Assembly (NCBI RefSeq): GCF_039555335.1
Contig: NC_092635.1
Coordinates: 68,298,058-68,362,057, forward strand
Reading direction: 5' to 3'
Length of the DNA: 64,000 nucleotides
DNA from: Amphiura filiformis
Taxonomy: Eukaryota; Echinodermata; Ophiuroidea; Amphilepidida; Amphiuridae
A model generated the notes under the pieces. The model made no database searches. It had not been told where the DNA came from and saw only the letters and a program-made list of their open reading frames with translations. This document shows, in pieces, positions 1-38,980 of the stretch; position 1 is the stretch's first letter, and the number at the start of each line of letters is the position of its first letter. A program made the translations under genes and the position numbers.

Positions 1-19
1 GTCCTCTTTTTTACAACAG

Positions 20-1251
20 CACGGAAGCAATGAGGCTTGGCTTGATGCCATCAAAACCTGCACCAGAAATATCCTCTCCATCTGGTATACAACAAAGTGC
101 ATTATCATGCGGGGCAACATCATCAACCTCCTGGTGGAAGAGACTGAAACGCCGTTTCAAGAAGAAACACAAATCAGTGCCAGTTATTCACAAAGATCTG
201 GCAGTGTGTGATCTGGACGAGGAGGCCTTGAAAGAGGTAAAATGTTAGCTATTTTATGCTCTTGATGGTTTACTTCAAACTTATACGCAATTACCATGAA
301 CATTGTAAACATCTGTTTCATTTAGCATGTTGTTTATCCAAAAGTAAAATTGTTATAATGACAATTGATCCATGTGCATCAGCATTAATTCCATGCTTCT
401 TGTTTGAAATTTCCAGAAATTCTTGGTTGAGTTGAAGAGAAGGAAGGCATTTCCAACTGTACTTACCTACAGGATCCCCTTCTTGAAGGCTTTCCGCCCG
501 AAACCTGAGCCAGAGAACAAGGTGAGCTGGGAACCCGCATGATCTTGAATTCTGCACTAATTGACAGATGAGATTTTGGAAAAGGGAATACTTAACGAAA
601 AAGGTCAACAATAAAGACCTAAAAAGTATTTAATATCAGGGCAGGCAGTATCCGAGGGAGAGAGGGTAAGACTTTTCCCAGGGGAGTGGGGAGGGGGTGG
701 CGGGGGCAGCAGTTAATTCTATCTTTGGCCATGTCACTAATGCGGCCCTCGATCCGACTATGAATGTGGCCCGTGAATCATTTTTTCACCCAAAATGATC
801 AAATAATCAAAAGTTAGCAATTTAACCTCTGTTGTATACGCGGCTCTTCAACTGTCTGAACTAGCCTGATAACATAAAATCCTGTTAATTTTAACACAAA
901 CTCAAATCAAAAGCCCCGACCATTTTGTGTCAAATAGAATCAATTACATGTTTTTATACACGAGAAATTTAATTCCTGTTCGTTGTTCATCTTTTTGCAG
1001 TATTCGCCCATGGAGATACCGAGAAAGTGTTTGAAAGACACTTTAATGGACTCAATCCATGGGATTATAGTGGCTCCCCTTCCTTTCTGGATACCACCTC
1101 AAGTCTAATGACTACTGAAGGCTGCATGAACACTACTTCTTCAAGAGAAGAATATGATTTCCTTCAAATGTTACAAAACACAGGGCAGCAACGAAGTATT
1201 GTGTTCTCCTGTGGAAAAATTTATTACAAGAAACAAAAATTTGAACAATAA
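20..1251 (+). pseudogene. Copy A of the arrayed five-exon gene, exons 3-5 only, exon 5 frameshifted
   Basis: Exons 1-2 lie left of the window. Exon 3 is 20-236 (acceptor acaacag, donor gtaaaa), exon 4 is 417-521 (acceptor tttccag, donor gtgagc) and exon 5 is 1001-1251 (acceptor tttttgcag). Exons 3 and 4 are open. Exon 5 lacks one base at 1019-1021 (ATACCGAG where intact copies have ATACCTGAG or ATACCCGAG). The frame therefore changes after MEIP and ends early at a TAA near 1107, giving a tail that finishes PFWIPPQV. The normal TAA would be 1249-1251, followed by AATAAA at 1264-1269. Copy G has the same deletion, so it is probably a real shared variant. Product unknown, as for copy B. Confidence 0.7.
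680..707 (+). other. G-quadruplex-prone tract in intron 4 (unit A)
   Basis: Four runs of at least four G occur within about 28 bases on the coding strand of intron 4 (GGGG, GGGG, GGGGG, GGGGG with short loops). The tract recurs in every unit with changed run lengths, for example 5845-5868, 11019-11040, 16227-16251, 21399-21422, 26557-26586 and 31734-31760. Unit F has a single run of 15 G. G-quadruplex folding is inference from the sequence. Confidence 0.6.
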
Positions 1252-1269
1252 TGAAATTACAAAAATAAA

Positions 1270-1733
1270 GCAGCGCGCACGCGGGCACTAACCAGGAGGG
1301 TTTTTGATTTGGTTTCTTTTCCTTGGGCTGGGTACACGCGATTAATGAAAGGCGGGCTTATACAAGTAGACCACAATGCTTCAATGCTGATGATCATAAT
1401 CATGGAATTAATGCAATGATTTTTAAAAGTCATTTTAAAATTTAAAATTACCCGTGATTGTTCAATATCCGCAAATTATTTGATGCATATTTCCATGATC
1501 ATGACAATTATAAATATTATGTTAATAATGTTCTTGGCAAAAATATCTTTGTATATCAAGTATAAAATACATCAAAAATGGCAAGAATTATGAAATAATG
1601 ATTAAAAAGTGCAATATTTGTGAACAATCATGATTTGTTGTCATCGTGTGTTTTTTTAGTGAAACGTCTATATTCATGATATTATTTAGCTTAGTAACCG
1701 ATGCGTATAGGGCCTAATTAGAAGGAAGGTAGG

Positions 1734-1767
<34 letters not shown>

Positions 1768-1780
1768 AAGAAAAGAAAAG

Positions 1781-1811
<31 letters not shown>

Positions 1812-1865
1812 GAAAAGAAAAGAAAAGAAAAGAAAAGAAAAGAAAAGAAAGAAAGAAAGAAAGAA

Positions 1866-1905
<40 letters not shown>

Positions 1906-3700: not shown

Positions 3701-3908
3701 CAGTAAATAGACGCGTAAATCGACGCACATTGACAAACAAAACCCAACTCGCGCTCGCGTAAATACCCGCGCGCACTGCGCAGCAACTCCCATAGTGATG
3801 TACGCACGTTTCCCTAATAAAAGCCATCACTTTGCGTTTGCTTGCCTTTATGGTAACAATACTAAGCATATTCTCCAAGATATTTAAAGATTAATTCGTC
3901 TATAGAAA
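3700..3908 (+). promoter_or_regulatory. Probable promoter and 5' leader of copy B
   Basis: A short CpG-rich block stands out from AT-rich surroundings just upstream of the exon 1 ATG. It contains GACGCGTAAATCGACGCAC, CTCGCGCTCGCG and CGCGCGCACTGCGCAGC, the last resembling an NRF-1-type GCGCA palindrome. No clear TATA box at a standard place. Equivalent blocks precede exon 1 at about 8875-9082, 14095-14304, 19255-19460, 24412-24620, 29586-29794 and 35048-35256, so each copy keeps its own promoter. Units C and E lack one C in the CCCGCGCG run. The role is inferred from position and composition. Confidence 0.45.
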
Positions 3909-6418
3909 ATGGATACAAGGATCCAAGCTCCATTAATTGGAAGCTGTCGTGTATGCAAAAAGTTACACAGTTCTGTTAAGGTGAGTTTATGCAGTTTCAT
4001 TGAGGAAATTTTTTTTTTAAAACTTAATTACCAGAACTATTCCGAAAGAGTTAGGCCTATATTTTGACAAACCATGAACGGGTGGGCTACAAAATATTTT
4101 CACAGGCCTGTACCATTTACATCGTCATTGTTGGATGTGTGTGCGGGAGGGTATGACTGAGAAGTCGGATGATTGTGTGATGTGTAGGCCTATATATCAA
4201 TGTGTGGGGTGTATTTTTCTATTTACAATTGAAATAACTTTTACCTCTTACTTTTAAATTTCAGAATAATGATAAAGAGCCAACATCTATAGTGCTCTTT
4301 GAAGATGAAGAGCCAAAACCGATTGCGCTCGTTAACGCTGAAGAGCCAACATCAATAGCGCTCTTTGACGCGGATGAAGAGCCAACATCAATAGCGCTCT
4401 TTCCAACTTTGCCTGTGTATTCCACCTCAACAGAGCTGGTTGTTGGAGATTGTGACCATCCAGTCTACCGCGAGCTATATGCGGAGAAACACTGGTCAGA
4501 GGTTCCTGTGGAAACTCAGTGCAAGTACTACGCCGATAAACTAGCCGATTTTAGACGCAAGACAGGACAGAAACAACGTGGTCCTGTATTTGACAAGTGG
4601 GATATCATCGAGCATGTACGATGCAACTCCGTGCGTATCAGGAAGCGGGAGCATGAAGTTGTCAGAGCTTCATATGTGTACCCTGAATCCCCCTGGATGA
4701 TACACGATGATCCCCAAGGGTAAGTTTATGTCATCTATCTCAATTCCATTTAGATATTTATACAGGACATGTATACTCAAACGCATAAATGTCATAATTG
4801 CCTTCGTTTAAGAAAATCAGAACATTAGGCCTAATTGGTGGCGACCTGAGTCTCATTCCGGTTTTTTTTCTCACAGGGGTAGCTGACTACGCCACTATTG
4901 CGGGCCTCGACGATGTCCAATGTGGTCTGCGAAACATTGTCCTTTAGGAAATTCGCACTATATGAAGTGTGCGCTCAAAATGCATCGCCTTTTGAAGTTA
5001 AAGGCGGATCCTCAATTGAGCATTGGAAATTGTTTGCATAGAAATTAAAACCATGACAATTATTAAAGACCACACAATTCAAATTTACAAATAACCGTTC
5101 TTTACAGTAAGCTACGTCAGATGAGGCCCTGTCATTATGTTACAGCCGTAATGATTAATTATTATTGTCCTCTTTTTTACAACAGCACGGAAGCAATGAG
5201 GCTTGGCTTGATGCCATCAAAACCTGCACCAGAAATATCCTCTCCATCTGGTATACAACAAAGTGCATTATCATGCGGGGCAACATCATCAACCTCCTGG
5301 TGGAAGAGACTGAAACGCCGTTTCAAGAAGAAACACAAATCAGTGCCAGTTATTCACAAAGATCTGGCAGTGTGTGATCTGGACGAGGAGGCCTTGAAAG
5401 AGGTAAAATGTTAGCTATTTTATGCTCTTGATGGTTTACTTCAAACTTATACGCAATTACCATGAACATTGTAAACATCTGTTTCATTTAGCATGTTGTT
5501 TATCCAAAAGTAAAATTGTTATAATGACAATTGATCCATGTGCATCAGCATTAATTCCATGCTTCTTGTTTGAAATTTCCAGAAATTCTTGGTTGAGTTG
5601 AAGAGAAGGAAGGCATTTCCAACTGTACTTACCTACAGGATCCCCTTCTTGAAGGCTTTCCGCCCGAAACCTGAGCCAGAGAACAAGGTGAGCTGGGAAC
5701 CCGCATGATCTTGAATTCTGCACTAATTGACAGATGAGATTTTGGAAAAGGGAATACTTAACGAAAAAGGTCAACAATAAAGACCTAAAAAGTATTTAAT
5801 ATCAGGGCAGGCAGTATCCGAGGGAGAGAGGGTAAGACTTTTCCCAGGGGGGGGAGGGGTGGCGGGGGCAGCAGTTAATTCTATCTTTGGCCATGTCACT
5901 AATGCGGCCCTCGATCCGACTATGAATGTGGCCCGTGAATCATTTTTTCACCCAAAATGATCAAATAATCAAAAGTTAGCAATTTAACCTCTGTTGTATA
6001 CGCGGCTCTTCAACTGTCTGAACTAGCCTGATAACATAAAAATCCTGTTAATTTTAACACAAACTCAAATCAAAAGCCCCGACCATTTTGTGTCAAATAG
6101 AATCAATTACATGTTTTTATACACGAGAAATTTAATTCCTGTTCGTTGTTCATCTTTTTGCAGTATTCGCCCATGGAGATACCTGAGAAAGTGTTTGAAA
6201 GACACTTTAATGGACTCAATCCATGGGATTATAGTGGCTCCCCCCCTTCCTTTCTGGATACCACCTCAAGTCTAATGACTACTGAAGGCTGCATGAACAC
6301 TACTTCTTCAAGAGAAGAATATGATTTCCTTCAAATGTTACAAAACACAGGGCAGCAACGAAGTATTGTGTTCTCCTGTGGAAAAATTTATTACAAGAAA
6401 CAAAAATTTGAACAATAA
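3909..6418 (+). CDS. Copy B of the arrayed gene: intact five-exon gene, unknown 367-residue protein
   Basis: Exons: 3909-3980, 4265-4719, 5186-5402, 5583-5687, 6164-6418. All introns are GT-AG and the phases (0, 2, 0, 0) join into one frame ending at TAA 6416-6418. AATAAA follows at 6431-6436. The ATG has a good context (aaaATGG) and an in-frame TAG two codons upstream. Seen in the protein: a CRVC pair at residues 13-16; four EPTSIALF-type repeats at about 29-70; a charged region at about 85-175 with many Arg, Lys, His and Trp; a basic patch KRLKRRFKKKHK at 216-227 that resembles a nuclear signal; and a Ser/Thr-rich C-terminus. Exon 5 has seven C where most copies have four, adding one Pro in frame. 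There is no signal peptide or membrane segment. I do not recognise the family; nuclear location is inference. Confidence 0.75.
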
Positions 6419-6430
6419 TGAAATTACAAA

Positions 6431-6436
6431 AATAAA
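6431..6436 (+). promoter_or_regulatory. Poly(A) signal AATAAA of copy B
   Basis: Canonical AATAAA 12 bases after the stop codon. Equivalent signals lie at 1264-1269 (A), 11603-11608 (C), 21981-21986 (E) and 32318-32327 (G, two overlapping). Copy F has lost it to an A run. Confidence 0.65.
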
Positions 6437-6898
6437 GCAGCGCGCGCGGGCACTAACCGGGAGGGTTTTTGATTTGGTTTCTTTTCCTTGGGCTGGGTAC
6501 ACGCGATTAATGAAAGGCGGGCTTATACAAGTAGACCACAATGCTTCAATGCTGATGATCATAATCATGGAATTAATGCAATGATTTTTAAAAGTCATTT
6601 TAAAATTTAAAATTACCCGTGATTGTTCAATATCCGCAAATTATTTGATGCATATTTCCATGATCATGACAATTATAAATATTATGTTAATAATGTTCTT
6701 GGCAAAAATATCTTTGTATATCAAGTATAAAATACATCAAAAATGGCAAGAATTATGAAATAATGATTAAAAAGTGCAATATTTGTGAACAATCATAATT
6801 TGTTGTCATCGTGTGTTTTTTTTAGTGAAACGTCTATATTCATGATATTATTTAGCTTAGTAACCGATGCGTATAGGGCCTAATTAGAAGGAAGGTAG

Positions 6899-7024
6899 GA
6901 AAAAAAAAGAAAAAGAAAAGAAAAGAAAAGAAAAGAAAAGAAAAGAAAGAAAAGAAAAGAAAAGAAAAGAAAAGAAAAGAAAAGAAAAGAAAGAAAAGAA
7001 AAGAAAAGAAAAGAAAGAAAAGAA

Positions 7025-7100
<76 letters not shown>

Positions 7101-7102
7101 AA
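6899..7102. repeat. (GAAAA)n(GAAA)n polypurine tract, unit B
   Basis: Same position as in unit A. Here the GAAA block (about 7024-7102) is uninterrupted. Confidence 0.95.
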
Positions 7103-9082: not shown

Positions 9083-11589
9083 ATGGATACAAGGATCCAA
9101 GCTCCATTAATTGGAAGCTGTCGTGTATGCAAAAAGTTACACAGTTCTGTTAAGGTGAGTTTATGCAGTTTCATTGAGGAAATTTTTTTTTAAACTTAAT
9201 TACCAGAACTATTCCGAAAGAGTTAGGCCTATATTTTGACAAACCATGAACGGGTGGGCTACAAAATATTTTCACAGGCCTGTACCATTTACATCGTCAT
9301 TGTTGGATGTGTGTGCGGGAGGGTATGACTGAGAAGTCGGATGATTGTGTGATGTGTAGGCCTATATATCAATGTGTGGGGTGTATTTTTCTATTTACAA
9401 TTGAAATAACTTTTACCTCTTACTTTTAAATTTCAGAATAATGATAAAGAGCCAACATCTATAGTGCTCTTTGAAGATGAAGAGCCAAAACCGATTGCGC
9501 TCGTTAACGCTGAAGAGCCAACATCAATAGCGCTCTTTGACGCGGATGAAGAGCCAACATCAATAGCGCTCTTTCCAACTTTGCCTGTGTATTCCACCTC
9601 AACAGAGCTGGTTGTTGGAGATTGTGACCATCCAGTCTACCGCGAGCTATATGCGGAGAAACACTGGTCAGAGGTTCCTGTGGAAACTCAGTGCAAGTAC
9701 TACGCCGATAAACTAGCCGATTTTAGACGCAAGACAGGACAGAAACAACGTGGTCCTGTATTTGACAAGTGGGATATCATCGAGCATGTACGATGCAACT
9801 CCGTGCGTATCAGGAAGCGGGAGCATGAAGTTGTCAGAGCTTCATATGTGTACCCTGAATCCCCTGGATGATACACGATGATCCCCAAGGGTAAGTTTAT
9901 GTCATCTATCTCAATTCCATTTAGATATTTATACAGGACATGTATACTCAAACGCATAAATGTCATAATTGCCTTCGTTTAAGAAAATCAGAACATTAGG
10001 CCTAATTGGTGGCGACCTGAGTCTCATTCCGGTTTTTTTTTTCTCACAGGGGTAGCTGACTACGCCACTATTGCGGGCCTCGACGATGTCCAATGTGGTC
10101 TGCGAAACATTGTCCTTTAGGAAATTCGCACTATATGAAGTGTGCGCTCAAAATGCATCGCCTTTTGAAGTTAAAGGCGGATCCTCAATTGAGCATTGGA
10201 AATTGTTTGCATAGAAATTAAAACCATGACAATTATTAAAGACCACACAATTCAAATTTACAAATAACCGTTCTTTACAGTAAGCTACGTCAGATGAGGC
10301 CCTGTCATTATGTTACAGCCGTAATGATTAATTATTATTGTCCTCTTTTTTACAACAGCACGGAAGCAATGAGGCTTGGCTTGATGCCATCAAAACCTGC
10401 ACCAGAAATATCCTCTCCATCTGGTATACAACAAAGTGCATTATCATGCGGGGCAACATCATCAACCTCCTGGTGGAAGAGACTGAAACGCCGTTTCAAG
10501 AAGAAACACAAATCAGTGCCAGTTATTCACAAAGATCTGGCAGTGTGTGATCTGGACGAGGAGGCCTTGAAAGAGGTCAAATGTTAGCTATTTTATGCTC
10601 TTGATGGTTTACTTCAAACTTATACGCAATTACCATGAACATTGTAAACATCTGTTTCATTTAGCATGTTGTTTATCCAAAAGTAAAATTGTTATAATGA
10701 CAATTGATCCATGTGCATCAGCATTAATTCCATGCTTCTTGTTTGAAATTTCCAGAAATTCTTGGTTGAGTTGAAGAGAAGGAAGGCATTTCCAACTGTA
10801 CTTACCTACAGGATCCCCTTCTTGAAGGCTTGCCGACCGAAACCTGAGCCAGAGAACAAAGTGAGCTGGGAACCCGCATGATCTTGAATTCTGCACTAAT
10901 TGACAGATGAGATTTTGGAAAGGGAATACTTAACGAAAAAGGTCAACAATAAAGACCTAAAAAGTATTTAATATCAGGGCAGGCAGTATCCGAGGAGAGA
11001 GGGTAAGACTTTTCCCAGGGGAGGGGGAGGGGTGGCGGGGCAGCAGTTAATTCTATCTTTGGCCATGTCACTAATGCGGCCCTCGATCCGACTATGAATG
11101 TGGCCCGTGAATCATTTTTTTTTTTTTTTTGATCAAATAATCAAAAGTTAGCAATTTAACCTCTGTTGTATACGCGGCTCTTCAACTGTCTGAACTAGCC
11201 TGATAACATAAAAATCCTGTTAATTTTAACACAAACTCAAATCAAAAGCCCCGACCATTTTGTGTCAAATAGAATCAATTACATGTTTTTATACACGAGA
11301 AATTTAATTCCTGTTCGTTGTTCATCTTTTTGCAGTATTCGCCCATGGAGATACCCGAGAAAGTGTTTGAAAGACACTTTAATGGACTCAATCCATGGGA
11401 TTATAGTGGCTCCCCCCTTCCTTTCTGGATACCACCTCAAGTCTAATGACTACTGAAGGCTGCATGAACACTACTTCTTCAAGAGAAGAATATGATTTCC
11501 TTCAAATGTTACAAAACACAGGGCAGCAACGAAGTATTGTGTTCTCCTGTGGAAAAATTTATTACAAGAAACAAAAATTTGAACAATAA
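9083..11589 (+). pseudogene. Copy C of the arrayed gene, frameshifted in exons 2 and 5
   Basis: Exons correspond to 9083-9154, 9437-9890, 10359-10575, 10756-10860 and 11336-11589. Exon 1 is intact. Exon 2 lacks one C in the run before TGG (about 9859-9863), so the frame ends at ...YPESPG. Exon 3 has donor GTCAAA instead of GTAAAA. Exon 4 has a Phe-to-Cys change, and its last codon is AAA before the donor. Exon 5 has six C instead of four near 11412-11417. This +2 shift ends at TAA 11444-11446 with a ...PFWIPPQV tail. Homopolymer-length lesions could be consensus errors, so the pseudogene call is moderate. Copy G shares the exon 2 lesion. Confidence 0.65.
11115..11130. other. Sixteen-T run replacing unique intron 4 sequence in copy C
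   Basis: Other units have six T followed by cacccaaaat at this place. Unit C has 16 T over exactly the same length, so ten mixed bases appear overwritten by T. Compare 15567-15581 in unit D. A consensus artefact is a likely explanation. Confidence 0.7.
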
Positions 11590-12072
11590 TGAAATTACAA
11601 AAAATAAAGCAGCGCGCGCACGCGGGCACTAACCGGGAGGGTTTTTGATTTGGTTTCTTTTCCTTGGGCTGGGTACACGCGATTAATGAAAGGCGGGCTT
11701 ATACAAGTAGACCACAATGCTTCAATGCTGATGATCATAATCATGGAATTAATGCAATGATTTTTAAAAGTCATTTTAAAATTTAAAATTACCCGTGATT
11801 GTTCAATATCCGCAAATTATTTGATGCATATTTCCATGATCATGACAATTATAAATATTATGTTAATAATGTTCTTGGCAAAAATATCTTTGTATATCAA
11901 GTATAAAATACATCAAAATGGCAAGAATTATGAAATAATGATTAAAAAGTGCAATATTTGTGAACAATCATAATTTGTTGTCATCGTGTGTTTTTTTTAG
12001 TGAAACGTCTATATTCATGATATTATTTAGCTTAGTAACCGATGCGTATAGGGCCTAATTAGAAGGAAGGTA

Positions 12073-14304: not shown

Positions 14305-16848
14305 ATGGATACAAGGATCCAAGCTCCATTAATTGGAAGCTGTCGTGTATGCAAAAAGTTACACAGTTCTGTTAAGGTGAGTTTATGCAGTTTCATTGAG
14401 GAAATTTTTTTTTTAAACTTAATTACCAGAACTATTCCGAAAGAGTTAGGCCTATATTTTGACAAACCATGAACGGGTGGGCTACAAAATATTTTCACAG
14501 GCCTGTACCATTTACATCGTCATTGTTGGATGTGTGTGCGGGAGGGTATGACTGAGAAGTCGGATGATTGTGTGATGTGTAGGCCTATATATCAATGTGT
14601 GGGTGTATTTTTTTATTTACAATTGAAATAACTTTTACCTCTTACTTTTAAATTTCAGAATAATGATAAAGAGCCAACATCTATAGTGCTTTTTGAAGAT
14701 GAAGAGCCAAAACCGATTGCGCTCGTTAACGCTGAAGAGCCAACATCAATAGCGCTCTTTGACGCGGATGAAGAGCCAACATCAATAGCGCTCTTTCCAA
14801 CTTTGCCTGTGTATTCCACCTCAACAGAGCTGGTTGTTGGAGATTGTGACCATCCAGTCTACCGCGAGCTATATGCGGAGAAACACTGGTCAGAGGTTCC
14901 TGTGGAAACTCAGTGCAAGTACTACGCCGATAAACTAGCCGATTTTAGACGCAAGACAGGACAGAAACAACGTGGTCCTGTATTTGACAAGTGGGATATC
15001 ATCGAGCATGTACGATGCAACTCCGTGCGTATCAGGAAGCGGGAGCATGAAGTTGTCAGAGCTTCATATGTGTACCCTGAATCCCCCTGGATGATACACG
15101 ATGATCCCCAAGGGTAAGTTTATGTCATCTATCTCAATTCCATTTAGATATTTATACAGGACATGTATACTCAAACGCATAAATGTCATAATTGCCTTCG
15201 TTTAAGAAAATCAGAACATTAGGCCTAATTGGTGGCGACCTGAGTCTCATTCCGGTTTTTTTCTCACAGGGGGTAGCTGGCTACGCCACTATTGCGGGCC
15301 TCGACGATGTCCAATGTGGTCTGCGAAACATTGTCCTTTAGGAAAATCGCACTATATGAAGTGTGCGCTCAAAATGCATCGCCTTTTGAAGTTAAAGGCG
15401 GATCCTCAATTGAGCATTGGAAATTGTTTGCATAGAAATTAAAACCATGACAATTATTAAAGACCACACAATTCAAATTTACAAATAACCGTTCTTTACA
15501 GTAAGCTACGTCAGATGAGGCCCTGTCATTATGTTACAGCCGTAATGATTAATTATTATTGTCCTCTTTTTTTTTTTTTTTGGAAGCAATGAGGCTTGGC
15601 TTGATGCCATCAAAACCTGCACCAGAAATATCCTCTCCATCTGGTATACAACAAAGTGCATTATCATGCGGGGCAACATCATCAACCTCCTGGTGGAAGA
15701 GACTGAAACGCCGTTTCAAGAAGAAACACAAATCAGTGCCAGTTATTCACAAAGATCTGGCAGTGTGTGATCTGGACGAGGAGGCCTTGAAAGAGGTAAA
15801 ATGCTATTTTAACTTGATGGTTTTCAAACTTATGCAATTACCATGAACATTGTAAACATCTGTTTCATTTAGCATGTTGTTTATCCAAAAGTAAAATTGT
15901 TATAATGACAATTGATCCATGTGCATCAACATTAATTCCATGCTTCTTGTTTGAAATTTCCAGAAATTCTTGGTTGAGTTGAAGAGAAGGAAGGCATTTC
16001 CAACTGTACTTACCTACAGGATCCCTTTCTTGAAGGCTTTCCGCCCGAAACCTGAGCCAGAGAACAAGGTGAGCTGGGAACCCGCATGATCTTGAATTCT
16101 GCACTAATTGACAGATGAGATTTTGGAAAAGGGAATAATTAAAGAAAAAGGTCAACAATAAAGACCTAAAAAGTATTTAATATCAGGGCAGGCAGTATCC
16201 GAGGAAGAGAGGGTAAGACTTTTCCCAGGGGAGGGGGGAGGGGTGGCGGGGCAGCAGTTAATTCTATCTTTGGCCATGTCACTAATGCGGCCCTCGATCC
16301 GACTATGAATGTGGCCCGTGAATCATTTTTTTCACCCAAAATGATCAAATAATCAAAAGTTAGCAATTTAACCTCTGTTGTATACGCGGCTCTTCAACTG
16401 TCTGAACTAGCCTGATAACATAAAAATCCTGTTAATTTTAACACAAACTCAAATCAAAAGCCCCGACCATTTTGTGTCAAATAGAATCAATTACATGTTT
16501 TTTATACACGATAAATATAATTCCTGTTCGTTGTTCATCTTTTTGCAGTATTCGCCCATGGAGATACCCGAGCAAGTGTTTGAAAGACACTTTAATGGAC
16601 TCAATCCATGGGATTATAGTGGCTCTCCTTCCTTTCTGGATACCACCTCAAGTCTAATAACTACTGAAGGCTGCAATACCAGAACACTCCTTCCTCAAGA
16701 GAAGAATATGATTTCCTTAAAATGTTACAAAACACAGGGCAGCAACGAAGTATTGTGTTCTCCTGTGGAAAAATTGATTACAAGAAACAAAAATTTGAAC
16801 AATAATGAAATTACAAAAATAAAGCAGCGCACGCGGGCACTAACCTAA
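14305..16848 (+). pseudogene. Copy D of the arrayed gene, exon 3 acceptor lost and exon 5 frame changed
   Basis: Exons 1 (14305-14376) and 2 (14659-15113) are intact. Exon 3 (about 15579-15795) has lost its acceptor: tttacaacagcac is replaced by a T run up to ggaagcaatg. Exon 4 (15964-16068) is open with a silent ATCCCC/ATCCCT change. Exon 5 begins at 16549 and gains a net five bases near 16673-16695. It then follows another frame to a stop at 16846-16848, giving a different lysine- and asparagine-rich tail. This copy also has more substitutions than its neighbours in intron 3 and is the most diverged unit. The T run may be a consensus error. Confidence 0.65.
15567..15581. other. Fifteen-T run over the exon 3 acceptor of copy D
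   Basis: Replaces ttttttacaacagcac of other units at nearly the same length (15 versus 16 bases), removing the AG. Same pattern as 11115-11130 in copy C. Confidence 0.7.
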
Positions 16849-21968: not shown

Positions 21969-22448
21969 TGAAATTACAAAAATAAAGCAGCAGCGCGCAC
22001 GCGGGCACTAACCGGGAGGGTTTTTGATTTGGTTTCTTTTCCTTGGGCTGGGTACACGCGATTAATGAAAGGCGGGCTTATACAAGTAGACCACAATGCT
22101 TCAATGCTGATGATCATAATCATGGAATTAATGCAATGATTTTAAAAGTCATTTTAAAATTTAAAATTACCCGTGATTGTTCAATATCCGCAAATTATTT
22201 GATGCATATTTCCATGATCATGACAATTATAAATATTATGTTAATAATGTTCTTGGCAAAAATATCTTTGTATATCAAGTATAAAATACATCAAAATGGC
22301 AAGAATTATGAAATAATGATTAAAAAGTGCAATATTTGTGAACAATCATAATTTGTTGTCATCGTGTGTTTTTTAGTGAAACGTCTATATTCATGATATT
22401 ATTTAGCTTAGTAACCGATGCGTATAGGGCCTAATTAGAAGGAAGGTA

Positions 22449-24620: not shown

Positions 24621-27132
24621 ATGGATACAAGGATCCAAGCTCCATTAATTGGAAGCTGTCGTGTATGCAAAAAGTTACACAGTTCTGTTAAGGTGAGTTT
24701 ATGCAGTTTCATTGAGGAAATTTTTTTTTAAACTTAATTACCAGAACTATTCCGAAAGAGTTAGGCCTATATTTTGACAAACCATGAACGGGTGGGCTAC
24801 AAAATATTTTCACAGGCCTGTACCATTTACATCGTCATTGTTGGATGTGTGTGCGGGAGGGTATGACTGAGAAGTCGGATGATTGTGTGATGTGTAGGCC
24901 TATATATCAATGTGTGGGGTGTATTTTTCTATTTACAATTGAAATAACTTTTACCTCTTACTTTTAAATTTCAGAATAATGATAAAGAGCCAACATCTAT
25001 AGTGCTCTTTGAAGATGAAGAGCCAAAACCGATTGCGCTCGTTAACGCTGAAGAGCCAACATCAATAGCGCTCTTTGACGCGGATGAAGAGCCAACATCA
25101 ATAGCGCTCTTTCCAACTTTGCCTGTGTATTCCACCTCAACAGAGCTGGTTGTTGGAGATTGTGACCATCCAGTCTACCGCGAGCTATATGCGGAGAAAC
25201 ACTGGTCAGAGGTTCCTGTGGAAACTCAGTGCAAGTACTACGCCGATAAACTAGCCGATTTTAGACGCAAGACAGGACAGAAACAACGTGGTCCTGTATT
25301 TGACAAGTGGGATATCATCGAGCATGTACGATGCAACTCCGTGCGTATCAGGAAGCGGGAGCATGAAGTTGTCAGAGCTTCATATGTGTACCCTGAATCC
25401 CCCTGGATGATACACGATGATCCCCAAGGGTAAGTTTATGTCATCTATCTCAATTCCATTTAGATATTTATACAGGACATGTATACTCAAACGCATAAAT
25501 GTCATAATTGCCTTCGTTTAAGAAAATCAGAACATTAGGCCTAATTGGTGGCGACCTGAGCCTCATTCCGGTTTTTTTTCTCACAGGGGTAGCTGACTAC
25601 GCCACTATTGCGGGCCTCGACGATGTCCAATGTGGTCTGCGAAACATTGTCCTTTAGGAAATTCGCACTATATGAAGTGTGCGCTCAAAATGCATCGCCT
25701 TTTGAAGTTAAAGGCGGATCCTCAATTGAGCATTGGAAATTGTTTGCATAGAAATTAAAACCATGACAATTATTAAAGACCACACAATTCAAATTTACAA
25801 ATAACCGTTCTTTACAGTAAGCTACGTCAGATGAGGCCCTGTCATTATGTTACAGCCGTAATGATTAATTATTATTGTCCTCTTTTTTACAACAGCACGG
25901 AAGCAATGAGGCTTGGCTTGATGCCATCAAAACCTGCACCAGAAATATCCTCTCCATCTGGTATACAACAAAGTGCATTATCATGCGGGGCAACATCATC
26001 AACCTCCTGGTGGAAGAGACTGAAACGCCGTTTCAAGAAGAAACACAAATCAGTGCCAGTTATTCACAAAGATCTGGCAGTGTGTGATCTGGACGAGGAG
26101 GCCTTGAAAGAGGTCAAATGTTAGCTATTTTATGCTCTTGATGGTTTACTTCAAACTTATACGCAATTACCATGAACATTGTAAACATCTGTTTCATTTA
26201 GCATGTTGTTTATCCAAAAGTAAAATTGTTATAATGACAATTGATCCATGTGCATCAGCATTAATTCCATGCTTCTTGTTTGAAATTTCCAGAAATTCTT
26301 GGTTGAGTTGAAGAGAAGGAAGGCATTTCCAACTGTACTTACCTACAGGATCCCCTTCTTGAAGGCTTTCCGCCCGAAACCTGAGCCAGAGAACAAGGTG
26401 AGCTGGGAACCCGCATGATCTTGAATTCTGCACTAATTGACAGATGAGATTTTGGAAAAGGGAATACTTAACGAAAAAGGTCAACAATAAAGACCTAAAA
26501 AGTATTTAATATCAGGGCAGGCAGTATCCGAGGGAGAGAGGGTAAGACTTTTCCCAGGGGAGGGGGGGGGGGGGGGTGGCGGGGGCAGCAGTTAATTCTA
26601 TCTTTGGCCATGTCACTAATGCGGCCCTCGATCCGACTATGAATGTGGCCCGTGAATCATTTTTTCACCCAAAATGATCAAATAATCAAAAGTTAGCAAT
26701 TTAACCTCTGTTGTATACGCGGCTCTTCAACTGTCTGAACTAGCCTGATAACATAAAAATCCTGTTAATTTTAACACAAACTCAAATCAAAAGCCCCGAC
26801 CATTTTGTGTCAAATAGAATTAATTACATGTTTTTATACACGAGAAATTTAATTCCTGTTCGTTGTTCATCTTTTTGCAGTATTCGCCCATGGAGATACC
26901 CGAGAAAGTGTTTGAAAGACACTTTAATGGACTCAATCCATGGGATTATAGTGGCTCCCCTTCCTTTCTGGATACCACCTCAAGTCTAATGACTACTGAA
27001 GGCTGCATGAACACTACTTCTTCAAGAGAAGAATATGATTTCCTTCAAATGTTACAAAACACAGGGCAGCAACGAAGTATTGTGTTCTCCTGTGGAAAAA
27101 TTTATTACAAGAAACAAAAATTTGAACAATAA
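24621..27132 (+). CDS. Copy F of the arrayed gene: second fully open copy, unknown 366-residue protein
   Basis: Exons: 24621-24692, 24975-25429, 25896-26112, 26293-26397, 26881-27132. All five are open and in phase, giving the standard 366-residue form: exon-encoded segments 1-24, 25-176, 177-248, 249-283 and 284-366. Visible features match copy B apart from the extra Pro. Two points could weaken expression. The exon 3 donor is GTCAAA rather than GTAAAA (shared with copy C). The AATAAA found 12-17 bases after the stop in other copies is replaced by a run of A (27142-27151). An A-run consensus error could explain the second point. Function unknown. Confidence 0.7.
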
Positions 27133-27617
27133 TGAAATTACAAAAAAAAAAAGCAGCGCGCGCACGCGGGCACTAACCGGGAGGGTTTTTGATTTGGTTT
27201 CTTTTCCTTGGGCTGGGTACACGCGATTAATGAAAGGCGGGCTTATACAAGTAGACCACAATGCTTCAATGCTGATGATCATAATCATGGAATTAATGCA
27301 ATGATTTTTAAAAGTCATTTTAAAATTTAAAATTACCCGTGATTGTTCAATATCCGCAAATTATTTGATGCATATTTCCATGATCATGACAATTATAAAT
27401 ATTATGTTAATAATGTTCTTGGCAAAAATATCTTTGTATATCAAGTATAAAATACATCAAAAATGGCAAGAATTATGAAATAATGATTAAAAAGTGCAAT
27501 ATTTGTGAACAATCATGATTTGTTGTCATCGTGTGTTTTTTTAGTGAAACGTCTATATTCATGATATTATTTAGCTTAGTAACCGATGCGTATAGGGCCT
27601 AATTAGAAGGAAGGTAG

Positions 27618-27740: not shown

Positions 27741-27804
<64 letters not shown>

Positions 27805-27806
27805 AA
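27618..27806. repeat. (GAAAA)n(GAAA)n polypurine tract, unit F
   Basis: GAAAA block to about 27720, then GAAA with one GAAAAA interruption. Confidence 0.95.
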
Positions 27807-29794: not shown

Positions 29795-32304
29795 ATGGAT
29801 ACAAGGATCCAAGCTCCATTAATTGGAAGCTGTCGTGTATGCAAAAAAGTTACACAGTTCTGTTAAGGTGAGTTTATGCAGTTTCATTGAGGAAATTTTT
29901 TTTTAAACTTAATTACCAGAACTATTCCGAAAGAGTTAGGCCTATATTTTGACAAACCATGAACGGGTGGGCTACAAAATATTTTCACAGGCCTGTACCA
30001 TTTACATCGTCATTGTTGGATGTGTGTGCGGGAGGGTATGACTGAGAAGTCGGATGATTGTGTGATGTGTAGGCCTATATATCAATGTGTGGGGTGTATT
30101 TTTCTATTTACAATTGAAATAACTTTTACCTCTTACTTTTAAATTTCAGAATAATGATAAAGAGCCAACATCTATAGTGCTCTTTGAAGATGAAGAGCCA
30201 AAACCGATTGCGCTCGTTAACGCTGAAGAGCCAACATCAATAGCGCTCTTTGACGCGGATGAAGAGCCAACATCAATAGCGCTCTTTCCAACTTTGCCTG
30301 TGTATTCCACCTCAACAGAGCTGGTTGTTGGAGATTGTGACCATCCAGTCTACCGCGAGCTATATGCGGAGAAACACTGGTCAGAGGTTCCTGTGGAAAC
30401 TCAGTGCAAGTACTACGCCGATAAACTAGCCGATTTTAGACGCAAGACAGGACAGAAACAACGTGGTCCTGTATTTGACAAGTGGGATATCATCGAGCAT
30501 GTACGATGCAACTCCGTGCGTATCAGGAAGCGGGAGCATGAAGTTGTCAGAGCTTCATATGTGTACCCTGAATCCCCTGGATGATACACGATGATCCCCA
30601 AGGGTAAGTTTATGTCATCTATCTCAATTCCATTTAGATATTTATACAGGACATGTATACTCAAACGCATAAATGTCATAATTGCCTTCGTTTAAGAAAA
30701 TCAGAACATTAGGCCTAATTGGTGGCGACCTGAGTCTCATTCCGGTTTTTTTTTTTCTTACATTGGGTAGCTGACTACGCCACTATTGCGGGCCTCGACG
30801 ATGTCCAATGTGGTCTGCGAAACATTGTCCTTTAGGAAATTCGCACTATATGAAGTGTGCGCTCAAAATGCATCGCCTTTTGAAGTTAAAGGCGGATCCT
30901 CAATTGAGCATTGGAAATTGTTTGCATAGAAATTAAAACCATGACAATTATTAAAGACCACACAATTCAAATTTACAAATAACCGTTCTTTACAGTAAGC
31001 TACGTCAGATGAGGCCCTGTCATTATGTTACAGCCGTAATGATTAATTATTATTGTCCTCTTTTTACAACAGCACGGAAGCAATGAGGCTTGGCTTGATG
31101 CCATCAAAACCTGCACCAGAAATATCCTCTCCATCTGGTATACAACAAAGTGCATTATCATGCGGGGCAACATCATCAACCTCCTGGTGGAAGAGACTGA
31201 AACGCCGTTTCAAGAAGAAACACAAATCAGTGCCAGTTATTCACAAAGATCTGGCAGTGTGTGATCTGGACGAGGAGGCCTTGAAGAGGTAAAATGTTAG
31301 CTATTTTATGCTCTTGATGGTTTACTTCAAACTTATACGCAATTACCATGAACATTGTAAACATCTGTTTCATTTAGCATGTTGTTTATCCAAAAGTAAA
31401 ATTGTTATAATGACAATTGATCCATGTGCATCAGCATTAATTCCATGCTTCTTGTTTGAAATTTCCAGAAATTCTTGGTTGAGTTGAAGAGAAGGAAGGC
31501 ATTTCCAACTGTACTTACCTACAGGATCCCCTTCTTGAAGGCTTTCCGCCCGAAACCTGAGCCAGAGAACAAGGTGAGCTGGGAACCCGCATGATCTTGA
31601 ATTCTGCACTAATTGACAGATGAGATTTTGGAAAAGGGAATACTTAACGAAAAAGGTCAACAATAAAGACCTAAAAAGTATTTAATATCAGGGCAGGCAG
31701 TATCCGAGGGAGAGAGGGTAAGACTTTTCCCAGGGGAGGGGGGAGGGGGTGGCGGGGGCAGCAGTTAATTCTATCTTTGGCCATGTCACTAATGCGGCCC
31801 TCGATCCGACTATGAATGTGGCCCGTGAATCATTTTTTCACCCAAAATGATCAAATAATCAAAAGTTAGCAATTTAACCTCTGTTGTATACGCGGCTCTT
31901 CAACTGTCTGAACTAGCCTGATAACATAAAAATCCTGTTAATTTTAACACAAACTCAAATCAAAAGCCCCGACCATTTTGTGTCAAATAGAATCAATTAC
32001 ATGTTTTTATACACGAGAAATTTAATTCCTGTTCGTTGTTCATCTTTTTGCAGTATTCGCCCATGGAGATACCGAGAAAGTGTTTGAAAGACACTTTAAT
32101 GGACTCAATCCATGGGATTATAGTGGCTCCCCTTCCTTTCTGGATACCACCTCAAGTCTAATGACTACTGAAGGCTGCATGAACACTACTTCTTCAAGAG
32201 AAGAATATGATTTCCTTCAAATGTTACAAAACACAGGGCAGCAACGAAGTATTGTGTTCTCCTGTGGAAAAATTTATTACAAGAAACAAAAATTTGAACA
32301 ATAA
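29795..32304 (+). pseudogene. Copy G of the arrayed gene, frameshifted in exons 1, 2, 3 and 5
   Basis: Exons correspond to 29795-29867, 30150-30603, 31073-31288, 31469-31573 and 32054-32304. Exon 1 has six A instead of five after TGC and so runs to TAA before its donor. Exon 2 lacks one C, as in copy C. Exon 3 lacks one A before the donor (TTGAAGAG). Exon 5 lacks one base in ATACCGAG, as in copy A. Only exon 4 is unaltered. Four separate lesions make this the most broken copy, though all are single-base indels and most are in homopolymers. Confidence 0.7.
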
Positions 32305-32790
32305 TGAAATTACAAAAAATAAATAAAGCAGCGCGCACGCGGGCACTAACCAGGAGGGTTTTTGATTTGGTTTCTTTTCCTTGGGCTGGGTACACGCGAT
32401 TAATGAAAGGCGGGCTTATACAAGTAGACCACAATGCTTCAATGCTGATGATCATAATCATGGAATTAATGCAATGATTTTTAAAAGTCATTTTAAAATT
32501 TAAAAATTACCCGTGATTGTTCAATATCCGCAAATTATTTGATGCATATTTCCATGATCATGACAATTATAAATATTATGTTAATAATGTTCTTGGCAAA
32601 AATATCTTTGTATATCAAGTATAAAATACATCAAAAATGGCAAGAATTATGAAATAATGATTAAAAAGTGCAATATTTGTGAACAATCATAATTTGTTGT
32701 CATCGTGTGTTTTTTTTAGTGAAACGTCTATATTCATGATATTATTTAGCTTAGTAACCGATGCGTATAGGGCCTAATTAGAAGGAAGGT

Positions 32791-32932
32791 AGAAAAAAAA
32801 AGAAAAAAGAAAAGAAAAGAAAAAAAGAAAAAAAGAAAAGAAAAGAAAAGAAAAGAAAAGAAAAGAAAAGAAAAGAAAAGAAAAGAAAGAAAAGAAAAGA
32901 AAAGAAAAGAAAGAAAGAAAGAAAGAAAGAAA

Positions 32933-32984
<52 letters not shown>

Positions 32985-33007
32985 AAAGAAAGAAAGAAAG
33001 AAAGAAA
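32791..33007. repeat. (GAAAA)n(GAAA)n polypurine tract, unit G
   Basis: The longest tract of the seven, with several five- to seven-A interruptions at its left end. Confidence 0.95.
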
Positions 33008-33961
33008 TGGGCATCCGTGTGCTGGGGAAAAAAACACTGATTTTATTACCAGCCATTTACCTTGGTGGTGTGGAATCTACAGGGTCAAAAAATTTTCTTA
33101 AAACCCCATTGTGCATGATCTTCAGCCTTTCTCAACATATCTTGACCAATAGAAGTGAAATTATTCAAGTTTAAGTATTGATGCCGACTAAAATTAATGC
33201 AGCATGTGCGTTGCTAACCATGTGCTATCTACTGAAGATAGCAAGATATGATAATCAGGCAGGGCCTAATATTTTGATTCTCAGCCTTTCAGATGTTTTT
33301 AATTGAGTCACAGAACACATGTTAAAGTTGAAACAAACATTACTACATCCAGACCTATTGTCAAGTAGGCAAAGCGATAAGTTGGACTTACCCATGAAAC
33401 ACAGCTTCCTTTTTAAAGGCTTTTCTTGTTTGCGGCGATTTCTTGTAAATAGTCAAAAATGCTTGAGGGATTATTCCTGTAACTTCATCATGATGCCAGA
33501 TGTTCACATACATGGTCATATCTGAACAAAAACAAAATTGAAATCAGACAGATTACTGCAACTGCATAGGCCTAACCGAACTCAGGCTCAGCCATGTCTC
33601 AGAGTCAATAACTAGCGCCTAGCCTACTCGACAAAACCCCAATTTTTCAGTTTAGGCTTAGAGGCCTTAATATCTTGTGCAAGAAAAATGATCTTGACTA
33701 GCTGCTGATTAATAATTAGGCCTACATTTACTTTAGCATGGTAAAGTTCCAGTAATAAGACTTTTTCAAGTAAGCTTAAACTTTCAAAATTCAATCTAAA
33801 GCCATTTTTGAGCATATTTCCAAATCCCTATATATCTAACCCCCCCCCCCTCTCACCCCACCCCCTATGTAATGCAAATTAGCAAAAAACTTACCCCAAA
33901 ACAGATAAAACTGGTTATATACTATTCCACAATTTGAATTTTATCTTGCTCGGTGATCTAA

Positions 33962-34216
33962 GGGACCGATCGTTATTTACGGCAGGGGGGGAATGGGTGT
34001 TTTGGCATAAATATCGACAAAAAATTTCGCGTTCCCCCCTCGCATCCGCTCAAAATTTTCGCGTTCCCCTTGTTTTCCCAATTTTCTCCATTTAAAATTT
34101 AACAATCCCCCTCCTGGTTCAACTAAAAATTTCAGGTTCCCCCTCAAGACCACAAAAAATTTCGTGTTCCCCTAAATTTACCCATTCCCCCCCTGCCATA
34201 AATAACGATCGCTCCC
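33962..34216. mobile_element. 255-bp MITE with 3-bp TAA target duplication (PIF/Harbinger-like)
   Basis: Present only in the spacer before copy H. The ends are inverted repeats of about 30 bp: GGGACCGATCGTTATTTA at the left and its counterpart ending ...CGATCGCTCCC at the right, with two differences. The interior is rich in C runs. TAA lies on both sides (33959-33961 and 34217-34219), and the other seven units have the single uninterrupted sequence, which proves the boundaries. A 3-bp TAA/TTA duplication is typical of PIF/Harbinger elements; the family call is inference. No coding capacity. Confidence 0.9.
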
Positions 34217-35615
34217 TAAATATAACGCATCGCCATACAGTGTTTCTAGAGTGTCTGTCATACATGTCAAATACAGGTTCCACGCCACCAAATAGAGTTC
34301 CTATTCATTTATGTGTTAAAAGGTACTCTGGAGGAATTGGTCGATTTATCATTGTTAAACCTCCCTGGTTCATTCAAATCACCATTTTACCTAATGTTTT
34401 ATGACATCTTCTACCATATAACCAACAAATATATAGGGTAGGTAAGCAGCACGATTTTTCGCATTGACGCGTCGAAAACTATGTAGGCCTACATCCTGTC
34501 AATCTTACAGCACACTGATTCTATAATGTGGTGACATCATCTGGTGAAGAAGAACAAAATACGTGCCCCAAATTTCAGAATTGTAACAAATGTAATCTTT
34601 TTATGCTTAGATATTGAGAAAACCATCCACAAAGTACAACTATCACAAAAAATAGGCACATCAGCCTTCTTTTCCAATTTTTCCCCATTAAATCAACCCT
34701 GGTATGGTTCTCACAATAAAAACACTGATTGTTTTACAAGCTATTTATACCTTGGTGGTGTGGAATCTTAAAGGCATCCAGAAGTTGGAAACACAACATT
34801 AGTTTATGGATTGTCCATTATTGGGCATCCTGAAAACCGGGCTTCTGAAAAGCTATGACCATTCCTATAAGCGGGTCTTTCCTGCCATCGGATGAATATC
34901 GATATTCGCAATTTCAAAATCATATGATACCCTTCTTGTCCTCACGTTCAGACCGTCTGTCTGTGCAATTGCGGCCAATTTGATTCTTCTTTGTTTTATG
35001 TTTGTGGTGCAGTATGCTGCATGGCATGATAATTAGCGACTGGTAATCCAGTAAATAGACGCGTAAATCGACGCACATTGACAAACAAAACCCAACTCGC
35101 GCTCGCGTAAATACCCGCGCGCACAGCGCAGCAACTCCCATAGTGATGTACGCACGTTTCCCTAATAAAAGCCATCACTTTGCGTTTGCTTGCCTTTATG
35201 GTAACAATACTAAGCATATTCTCCAAGATATTTAAAGATTAATTCGTCTATAGAAAATGGATACAAGGATCCAAGCTCCATTAATTGGAAGCTGTCGTGT
35301 ATGCAAAAAGTTACACAGTTCTGTTAAGGTGAGTTTATGCAGTTTCATTGAGGAAATTTTTTTTTTTTAAACTTAATTACCAGAACTATTCCGAAAGAGT
35401 TAGGCCTATATTTTGACAAACCATGAACGGGTGGGCTACAAAATATTTTCACAGGCCTGTACCATTTACATCGTCATTGTTGGATGTGTGTGCGGGAGGG
35501 TATGACTGAGAAGTCGGATGATTGTGTGATGTGTAGGCCTATATATCAATGTGTGGGGTGTATTTTTCTATTTACAATTGAAATAACTTTTACCTCTTAC
35601 TTTTAAATTTCAGAA

Positions 35616-37428
35616 TCTTACTATAAACTAGCGGTCACCCGTCTTTCGCGGTTCGTAAATATTTACAAATGCATCACCACCCTCCGAGTTTTTATTGTGA
35701 ACAATTTTACCAACTCCCTAATTATCACCGATTGATCAGTCGTTTCATTTAATTCATTTTAATTAACTTCTTCTTTGTTGCCCCCCCCCCCCGTGTTGTC
35801 CCCCTATCCCCGGTCAATATTCTCCCGTCCTTTCCACTCTTCCCTCTTTAGCTCACATCCCGCCTCTTCTCCCTCTTATCCGCTCTGTGTCTTATCTGTC
35901 CCTAGTATCATGGTTTTAGTAGTTCGGCTTAAAAAATAGTGAAATTTTCAATTTTTAAGTCAGTATAAGTACCGTAGGTCCTATGCTCAAAGTTTGATGG
36001 TCACCCATGCATCGCGGATTGTTCACTCATTATGATTTTCCCGTGTTTATTATTCCCACTTGCTTTATGCAGCGTGTTGATACGCGATGTCGTGAGATGA
36101 CGCGTGTTTTTTGTTTGACGCGGCGTGTTGATACGCGAAGACGCAAGATTTTTTTTGTTTGACGCGGTGTATTTGTTAGGCGGACATAGTAACTGATGCT
36201 CACTATTTTGAGGTCCCTGGATATTTTTTAATGTATTTTTGCTCATTTTTAGACTTTAATCACTGAGATTGAAAAAAATGAGGTGAATATGCAGCGTAAC
36301 TCGGTGAATGATAAGGTTTGCAAAAGTGAAATTTGCAGTTGCATCAGCACCGTTCGAGTTTTTATCACGAAAAGTTTTGCAACTCGGTAATTTGTTATAG
36401 ATAGGGAAATGTTGTATCTATGTATGTATGTATCTATCTAATAGTCTGACGATCGCCGTGAGGCGTGAAACTACTAGTTACTAAATGCTGAATATTATTT
36501 AGCCAAAATTGTTTTATTATGTATCTATCTATGTATGCCTATAAAGGTTCCGTCAGTTTCGATCCAAATGTCGCCAAATTCATACGGGAGATCGATGAAT
36601 ATACGGGGACGTGTTTAAACTTTATTTGGTTGAAAACGGTCAAGAATTGGCTGCAAAAACAGTGAAAATATGGGTAAAAACGGGTTTTTTGTTATGAAAA
36701 TCGGTCAGCCTAAGCTACGCGTCACTGCAGCTGGCCGGCAGCGCGTCGGCGCCTCGTGCGTAATGCGCACTATGTGAATGGGCGCGTAAACGGCGCAGAG
36801 CCACACGACTGCGAGCCAGAGACCAGTGGACATGATATTGATAATACGGAAAGAAGGAAAAATAAAGGACAAAAAGGACGGGTCACGGGATTATGATAAC
36901 GGGTGAACACGTCCGCAGACACGCTATGAGAGGACGTAATAAATACGGGAAAAAGATGTTTGTTGTATAAACAACATGAAGCGGTACTATAAAGAAAAAT
37001 AAAATTAAAATGAGGACAAAAAAGTACGAGTAATAGGCCAACGGGTTAAAGTAACTAAATGAAACGGGAACGAAACAAAGAAGGAAAGAAACTAATCAGG
37101 AAATGTAAGAAAAAAGAAGCTAAAATAATGAGAACAGAATTAAATAAAAAACATGGAAACGGGAAATCACAAGCAGCAAATAAACAAAGAAGCTAAAGCC
37201 GGAAAGGACAGACTTAGAAAATAATGAGAACGAGGTTAAATAAATAAATAACATGGAAACGGAATATCACAAGCTAAGCAAAAGAAACTAAAAAAGAAAG
37301 TGTAAGAAGAGAGAGGTTTAGAAAAATAAAATACCTTTTCAATGATTCTACCTGTTCAGTAATTATTCCTGTTATGGTGAACGCTCCCATCTAGCGGGGA
37401 CCCGCGCGAAGCGCGGGTATCCCGCTAG
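35616..37428 (+). mobile_element. Non-autonomous Helitron, 1813 bp, inserted in exon 2 of copy H
   Basis: Starts TCTTACTATAAAC and ends CTAG. Near the 3' end is the hairpin CCCGCGCGAAGCGCGGG, followed by TATCCCG and the terminal CTAG. It sits exactly between A and T of the target (cagaa / taatgat) with no target duplication. All four are Helitron hallmarks, and the seven empty copies of the same site fix both ends. The interior is AT-rich and includes a short TATC/TATG repeat near 36410-36445. It has no long open frame, so it would depend on a rolling-circle transposase elsewhere. Confidence 0.9.
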
Positions 37429-38474
37429 TAATGATAAAGAGCCAACATCTATAGTGCTCTTTGAAGATGAAGAGCCAAAACCGATTGCGCTCGTTAACGC
37501 TGAAGAGCCAACATCAATAGCGCTCTTTCCAACTTTGCCTGTGTATTCCACCTCAACAGAGCTGGTTGTTGGAGATTGTGACCATCCAGTCTACCGCGAG
37601 CTATATGCGGAGAAACACTGGTCAGAGGTTCCTGTGGAAACTCAGTGCAAGTACTACGCCGATAAACTAGCCGATTTTAGACGCAAGACAGGACAGAAAC
37701 AACGTGGTCCTGTATTTGACAAGTGGGATATCATCGAGCATGTACGATGCAACTCCGTTCGTGTCAGGAAGCGGGAGCATGAAGTTGTCAGAGCTTCATA
37801 TGTGTACCCTGAATCCCCCTGGATGATACACGATGATCCCCAAGGGTAAGTTTATGTCATCTATCTCAATTCCATTTAGATATTTATACAGGACATGTAT
37901 ACTCAAACGCATAAATGTCATAATTGCCTTCGTTTAAGAAAATCAGAACATTAGGCCTAATTGGTGGCGACCTGAGTCTCATTCCGGTTTTTTTCTCACA
38001 GGGGGTAGCTGACTACGCCACTATTGCGGGCCTCGACGATGTCCAATGTGGTCTGCGAAACATTGTCCTTTAGGAAATTCGCACTATATGAAGTGTGCGC
38101 TCAAAATGCATCGCCTTTTGAAGTTAAAGGCGGATTCTCAATTGAGCATTGGAAATTGTTTGCATAGAATTAAAACCATGACAATTATTAAAGACCACAC
38201 AATTCAAATTTACAAATAACCGTTCTTTACAGTAAGCTACGTCAGATGAGGCCCTGTCATTATGTTACAGCCGTAATGATTAATTATTATTGTCCTCTTT
38301 TTACAACAGCACGGAAGCAATGAGGCTTGGCTTGATGCCATCAAAACCTGCACCAGAAATATCCTCTCCATCTGGTATACAACAAAGTGCATTATCATGC
38401 GGGGCAACATCACCAACCTCCTGGTGGAAGAGACTGAAACGCCGTTTCAAGAAGAAACACAAATCAGTGCCAGT

Positions 38475-38482
38475 TAGGCCTA
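38475..38482. other. Newly created TAGGCCTA site in exon 3 of copy H
   Basis: Seven other units read CAGTTATTCAC here. Copy H reads CAGTTAGGCCTATTCAC, a six-base gain that turns TA into TAGGCCTA. The palindrome is abundant in this window, about six per unit. Confidence 0.9.
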
Positions 38483-38964
38483 TTCACAAAGATCTGGCAG
38501 TGTGTGATCTGGACGAGGAGGCCTTGAAAGAGGTAAAATGTTAGCTATTTTATGCTCTTGATGGTTTACTTCAAACTTATACGCAATTACCATGAACATT
38601 GTAAACATCTGTTTCATTTAGCATGTTGTTCTTCCAAAAGTAAAATTGTTATAATGACAATTGATCCATGTGCATCAGCATTAATTCCATGCTTCTTGTT
38701 TGAAATTTCCAGAAATTCTTGGTTGAGTTGAAGAGAAGGAAGGCATTTCCAACTGTACTTACCTACAGGATCCCCTTCTTGAAGGCTTTCCGCCCGAAAC
38801 CTGAGCCAGAGAACAAGGTGAGCTGGGAACCCGCATGATCTTGAATTCTGCACTAATTGACAGATGAGATTTTGGAAAAGGGAATACTTAACGAAAAAGG
38901 TCAACAATAAAGACCTAAAAATTATTTAATATCAGGGCAGGCAGTATCCGAGGGAGAGAGGGTA

Positions 38965-38980
38965 AGACTTTCCCTAAACC
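38965..38980. other. Right edge of the tandem array
   Basis: Sequence follows the unit consensus through gagagggtaagactt, then changes to single-copy DNA at tccctaaacc. Other units have ttttcccagggg here, so the shared TCCC may be microhomology at the breakpoint. Confidence 0.85.

Follow-up and report, generated by a model that had tools for sequence, protein, structure and literature searches.

What does a long row of near-identical genes represent: a set of working copies, or a recent duplication in which few copies are still whole? This question is raised by a locus in the ophiuroid Amphiura filiformis (NCBI RefSeq assembly GCF_039555335.1, contig NC_092635.1). The window analyzed here is the whole stretch of 64,000 nucleotides from position 68,298,058 to 68,362,057 of the forward strand, and all coordinates below refer to it. 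The first 38,974 bases are a tandem array of a five-exon gene. The sequence as given contains the array, a gene model above chance, a mosaic of variants among the units and damage to the copies. We consider it probable that this is a young multicopy locus, in which an ordinary intron-bearing gene was duplicated as a unit, spread by unequal crossing over and shuffled by exchange.

The array was delimited by self-BLAST, using the unit at 5166-10338 as the query. A unit of about 5.17 kb is repeated head to tail across positions 1-38,974, on the plus strand, as are all gene features of the array described below. The right edge lies at about 38,974, beyond which the DNA has no match to the unit, and the left edge lies beyond the window. 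Four further units align to the query without a break, at 97.7-99.1%. A preliminary description of this DNA counted eight head-to-tail units; the array is borne out, but only six gene copies (B to G) are whole, copy A being cut on the left and the terminal copy H truncated. The same description had the array continuing to the left of the window, which is very likely because base 1 already lies within intron 2 of copy A. The start codons of the seven other copies lie at 3909, 9083, 14305, 19461, 24621, 29795 and 35257. Successive distances between them are 5174, 5222, 5156, 5160, 5174 and 5462 bp, and the last of these contains a 255-bp insert. Each unit also carries one GAAA/GAAAA tract (at 6900..7102 after copy B), which measures 187-215 bp in seven inter-gene instances.

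Copy B serves as the reference for the gene model. Exon 1 (3909..3980) comprises 24 codons from the ATG, and exon 2 (4265..4719) encodes four 11-residue acidic/hydrophobic repeats, visible in the DNA as a 33-bp repeat at 4271-4402. Exon 3 (5186..5402) encodes the basic stretch KRLKRRFKKKHK, exon 4 (5583..5687) supplies 35 codons, and exon 5 (6164..6418) ends with a TAA stop that is followed by AATAAA at about 6431. An upstream block (3701..3908) carries TAATAAAA some 94 bp ahead of the ATG. The four junctions proposed earlier for this copy are exact, with phases 0, 2, 0 and 0, and the spliced open reading frame (ORF) has 367 codons. The acceptor of intron 2 is ambiguous between 5108 and 5186, the former adding 26 codons to exon 3 in frame. 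To compare the model with chance, spliced ORFs were searched by dynamic programming with at most four introns and simple donor and acceptor rules, applied identically to shuffled sequences; the splice-site thresholds were chosen so that copy B's own sites pass. The longest spliced ORF of the copy B region has 393 codons and is the same chain as the 367-codon model, with exon 3 taken from acceptor 5108. In 200 dinucleotide shuffles of the region the median was 125 codons and the maximum 233, and none of the 200 reached 367. The five-exon structure is far above chance.

The state of the individual copies, translated as given, is uneven. An ORF of 366 codons had been ascribed to each of the eight units, but among the six whole copies only B (367 codons) and F (366 codons) are open; the other four are damaged by frameshifts, a stop or the loss of an acceptor. 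Copy A (20..1253) retains exons 3-5, the window edge falling in intron 2, and has lost one base in exon 5. In copy C (9083..11591) exons 2 and 5 are frameshifted. Copy D (14305..16807) has a T run in place of the exon 3 acceptor and a 5-base insertion that shifts exon 5. Exon 1 of copy E (19461..21970) contains a TGC to TGA change, one of three changes clustered there, and its exon 4 has lost one base, while copy G (29795..32306) has one-base changes in four exons (1, 2, 3 and 5). Copy H (35257..38817) consists of exons 1-4, with exon 2 broken by a transposon and exon 5 absent. The ORF of copy F (24621..27134) is open; in this copy and in C the intron 3 donor reads GTCAAA, in contrast to GTAAAA in the six other copies. 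AATAAA follows the stop in copies A-E and G, and copy F has none within 40 bases after its stop. Of the copies in view, B alone has its ORF, splice sites and polyadenylation signal all intact. Under the rules used for copy B, the spliced ORFs of the other copies reach 271 (C), 209 (D), 344 (E), 312 (F), 190 (G) and 307 (H) codons. Several of these follow chains other than that of copy B, and the 344 codons of E start inside intron 1. The result for copy F probably reflects its GTCAAA donor scoring below threshold.

The insertion in copy H is a canonical-type Helitron of 1,812 bp (35616..37427, plus strand). It lies between A and T, two bases inside exon 2, with the empty site taken from copies B and C. 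Canonical Helitrons are marked by a 5' TC, a 3' CTRR, a 3' hairpin and insertion between A and T, according to the available part of one source (PMC8969392); the insert has these marks, its 3' end reading CTAG. No protein was recognized in it, though no search for proteins was directed at it. The 255-bp insert upstream of copy H (33962..34216) is an inverted-repeat element with 37-bp ends that differ at two positions and an apparent TAA target duplication, its boundaries and ends having been read by eye. Neither element recurs in the 25-kb right flank, where only two matches of 15-18 bases were found.

Variation among the units points to exchange between them. Without the GAAA tract, the pairwise substitution identity of six units is 98.6-99.7%, unit D being the most divergent. 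Adjacent units are not consistently the closest, as the values for B-E (99.69) and A-B (99.67) illustrate. Nine informative sites were available, seven of them clean, and 14 of the 21 pairs formed by these seven are incompatible under the four-gamete test. These incompatible patterns suggest exchange between units, with recurrent error at the informative sites as a possible alternative cause. The exchange between units that the preliminary description put forward as recurrent thus gains support from the incompatible pairs and from neighbors that are not consistently most alike.

A history of the following kind can be proposed. An intron-bearing gene with its own promoter and polyadenylation signal would have been duplicated together with about 2.6 kb of flanking DNA, giving the 5.17-kb unit. 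The unit would then have spread by unequal crossing over, a mechanism that we infer, and exchange or gene conversion would have reshuffled its copies. Units may misalign more readily because of the GAAA tract, and copy number probably varies by unequal exchange. The terminal copy H would be decaying through transposon insertion and truncation.

The damage in the exons can also be read in another way. Copies A, C, D, E and G together have nine exon frameshifts. Runs of at least four equal bases hold five of them and runs of exactly three hold another three; the ninth, D's insertion, is outside any such run. If such frameshifts were consensus errors of long-read sequencing, most units could be intact and co-transcribed, and the locus would be a maintained dosage array comparable to the embryonic and immune clusters of echinoids. 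We regard this as unlikely, although several observations speak for it. Eight of the nine frameshifts fall in runs of at least three, and copy-number-variable echinoid clusters exist: hbox12/pmar1/micro1 is present in 6 to 22 copies among seven individuals, as far as the available part of the source describes it (PMC5370098). The rate of indels per run is also alike inside and outside exons. It was obtained from six aligned units, with unit G excluded, each spanning exon 3 of one copy through exon 2 of the following copy. Three regions do not enter the indel counts, namely the GAAA tract, the upstream block and the final 19 bases of intron 2; variants common to several units were counted once per unit, which makes the P values approximate. 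For runs of at least four bases, the 12 exon runs had 7 homopolymer indels, or 0.097 per run per copy, and the 97 runs elsewhere had 53, or 0.091 (P 0.83). This equality fits the prediction of sequencing error and likewise that of neutral drift. Several lesions, on the other hand, are not simple homopolymer errors, namely the acceptor loss and 5-base insertion of D, the substitution stop of E, the donor and polyadenylation signal of F, and the Helitron and truncation of H. Dosage demand had been offered earlier as one meaning of the amplification. It is not favored by the single intact copy in view, nor by substitutions, which number 22 over the 1,101 exon bases and 90 over the remaining 3,593 bases of the six units, or 3.33 versus 4.17 per kb per copy, with no difference between the two (Fisher P 0.37).

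Some results nevertheless hint at selection on the copies and so speak against a young locus in which most change would be free to accumulate. Indels outside homopolymers are rarer in exons (2 versus 26 outside, P 0.043). All exon indels pooled are likewise fewer than those outside (P 0.002), a difference that for homopolymer indels is gone after run counting. Synonymous changes make up six of the 12 exon substitutions readable in frame, against an assumed 25% (P 0.054): none of three in exon 1, one of one in exon 2, three of four in exon 4 and two of four in exon 5 before D's insertion. In copy D, changes past the frameshift and three bases that disappeared along with the exon 3 acceptor are not part of this count. 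In a narrower set of exons 2 and 4 only, with exons 1 and 5 omitted, four of five are synonymous (P 0.016). Finally, the 208 bp upstream of the gene contain no substitutions in the six aligned units where about 5.2 are expected (P 0.005), which would also suit a dosage array; this block has two indel events among the same units, and copy H differs at one base. Substitutions are few all the way from the upstream block through to exon 3, but this stretch takes in introns 1 and 2 and is therefore poor evidence of coding constraint. We conclude that the array is young and that selection copy by copy is not measurable from these units.

Two further explanations concern the origin of the copies rather than their upkeep. 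The assembly may have expanded one to three true units or stitched haplotypes together, and the substitution divergence between units (0.3-1.4%) does fall within what is said to be the allelic range of marine invertebrates. We find this very improbable, given that private variants and tract length distinguish the units, that the edge copy has its own Helitron and inverted-repeat element, and that the array ends in non-matching DNA. The gene could instead be selfish or sex-linked and ampliconic, in the manner reported for Stellate and TSPY, with drive or a non-recombining chromosome behind its amplification. Young, near-identical, intron-bearing units with a simple-repeat tract would be in keeping with such a gene, but the neighbor of the array is an ordinary CLP1-like gene, and this is the explanation to which we give the least credence.

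What the gene encodes was approached through database searches and the composition of the protein (about 367 residues). The preliminary description had recognized no family, and this holds across Pfam and the sequences of the Protein Data Bank (PDB), and for exon 2 also across viral and prokaryote contigs. The full-length copy B protein matched nothing in Pfam beyond a RING fragment that scored below threshold (E 0.077; 13.3 bits, cut-off 27.3), and two pieces of the protein did no better. A search of PDB sequences up to E 10 returned five matches, the best at E 1.2, and no relative. Scanned with the exon 2 piece, viral contigs gave 3 pattern matches and prokaryote contigs 31, with no relative among them. 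Four peptides of the protein were absent from the text of papers, a result of little weight as papers rarely print sequences. Among the matches listed for echinoderm tandem arrays in the literature, no title or abstract opening pointed to the gene. The protein may well be on record already as an uncharacterized protein. It is improbable that it represents a lineage-restricted, recently amplified family with a novel fold and tandem acidic/hydrophobic ligand motifs, of the SUMO-binding or acidic-activator kind, in a functional high-copy echinoderm array.

Residues 25-75 of the protein hold the four repeats and have a net charge of -10; the repeat cores read IVLF, IALV, IALF and IALF, each beginning two residues past EP, with acidic residues next in three of the four. 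Residues 177-247, which contain the basic stretch of exon 3, have a net charge of +6. Because it has no obvious hydrophobic leader at its N-terminus (judged by eye), four short acidic/hydrophobic repeats and a strongly basic stretch, the protein could be an intracellular, possibly nuclear adaptor. SUMO-interacting motifs have a core of the form hXhh or hhXh with acidic flanks, as given in the available part of one source (PMC8616421). Under a strict form of this rule (I, V and L), one of the four repeats fits (IALV), and all four fit if F is allowed in the last place. There is a low probability that the repeats are SUMO-interacting motifs, and an equally low one that they are acidic activation repeats of the kind reported elsewhere. 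AlphaFold models were made from a single sequence and are unreliable; exon 2 reached a predicted local distance difference test (pLDDT) score of 35 and its last 92 residues one of 46, and the two models conflict, one giving strands and the other a third helix. RNF4 is said to carry serial SUMO-interacting motifs, and the array gene resembles such proteins in placing short aliphatic cores beside acidic residues four times. It is unlike them in that three of its four repeats end in F and that no RING or other ligase domain rises above the Pfam cut-off.

The locus can be compared with two clustered gene families of echinoids, in each case by what the available parts of the sources describe. The SpTransformer (Sp185/333) genes of purple sea urchin immune clusters, some of them near-identical, have two exons, the second a mosaic of elements, with GA repeats around the genes, repeats in the coding exon and segmental duplications of 4.3 kb (PMC10887614). 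The array shares with them clustered genes, simple repeats beside each gene, coding-exon repeats and segmental duplication. Unlike these two-exon, GA-repeat genes, and compared by description only, the array gene lacks an obvious leader, is split into five exons and lies beside GAAA/GAAAA tracts. The hbox12/pmar1/micro1 genes are intron-bearing and are thought to have been duplicated as intact units, some pairs standing head to tail (PMC5370098). They are similar to the array gene in this presumed duplication of an intron-bearing gene as a whole unit. In contrast, they have two exons with a single intron, encode a homeodomain and are often divergent, whereas the array gene has five exons in one orientation; Pfam found no homeodomain in the copy B protein. 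The array gene fits the definition of neither family, although the array would resemble both in a copy number that probably shifts through unequal exchange.

A candidate gene on the opposite strand was rejected. Two minus-strand stretches in the unit between B and C (7613-7485 and 7281-7152) could be joined by eye through an in-frame splice. The first frame has two consecutive stop codons, only the part beyond them being used, and the second stretch ends in a stop followed by AATAAA. The joined peptide had no Pfam match and a PDB match of only E 1.4, and the strand has no spliced ORF above chance: its best in the copy B region is 122 codons, a length attained by 113 of the 200 shuffles. About 50 bp at the end of the 7281-7152 stretch recur, in two pieces, 1.42 kb away.

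The right flank bears no relation to the array. It contains, in pieces on the minus strand, a gene resembling CLP1, a messenger RNA 3'-end-processing factor, with the CLP1_P domain between 56349 and 63330. Of the ten ORFs given, four had this Pfam domain, three of them above the cut-off (best E 3.4e-18), and one gave a sub-threshold match to the Clp1 C-terminal domain (18.1 bits, cut-off 27.9). Within the same gene, at 57340-57629, a 147-bp segment with exon sequence is tandemly duplicated at 94%, either as a duplicated exon or as an assembly slip. The flank also holds a tRNA-Met gene and six occurrences of TAGGCCTA, where 0.18 are expected; we take this motif to be linked to echinoderms, a link for which the literature gave no support. 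Its enrichment, together with the spliceosomal introns, would suit an echinoderm. In addition, a 34-bp tandem repeat occupies 40689-41310 (18.3 copies, 92% matches). A direct duplication at about 47019-49087, with its halves about 1.06 kb apart, has the same 17-bp repeats at 47316 and 48375 and near-identical ORF translations.

The number of working genes at this locus is not readable from a few open frames, because homopolymer indels strike exons and introns alike. More generally, open frames in one or two copies of a long tandem array give no count of working genes. The echinoderm clusters with which the locus was compared serve embryonic patterning (hbox12/pmar1) or immunity (SpTransformer), and the array of A. 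filiformis would add to them a case with an unclassified protein.

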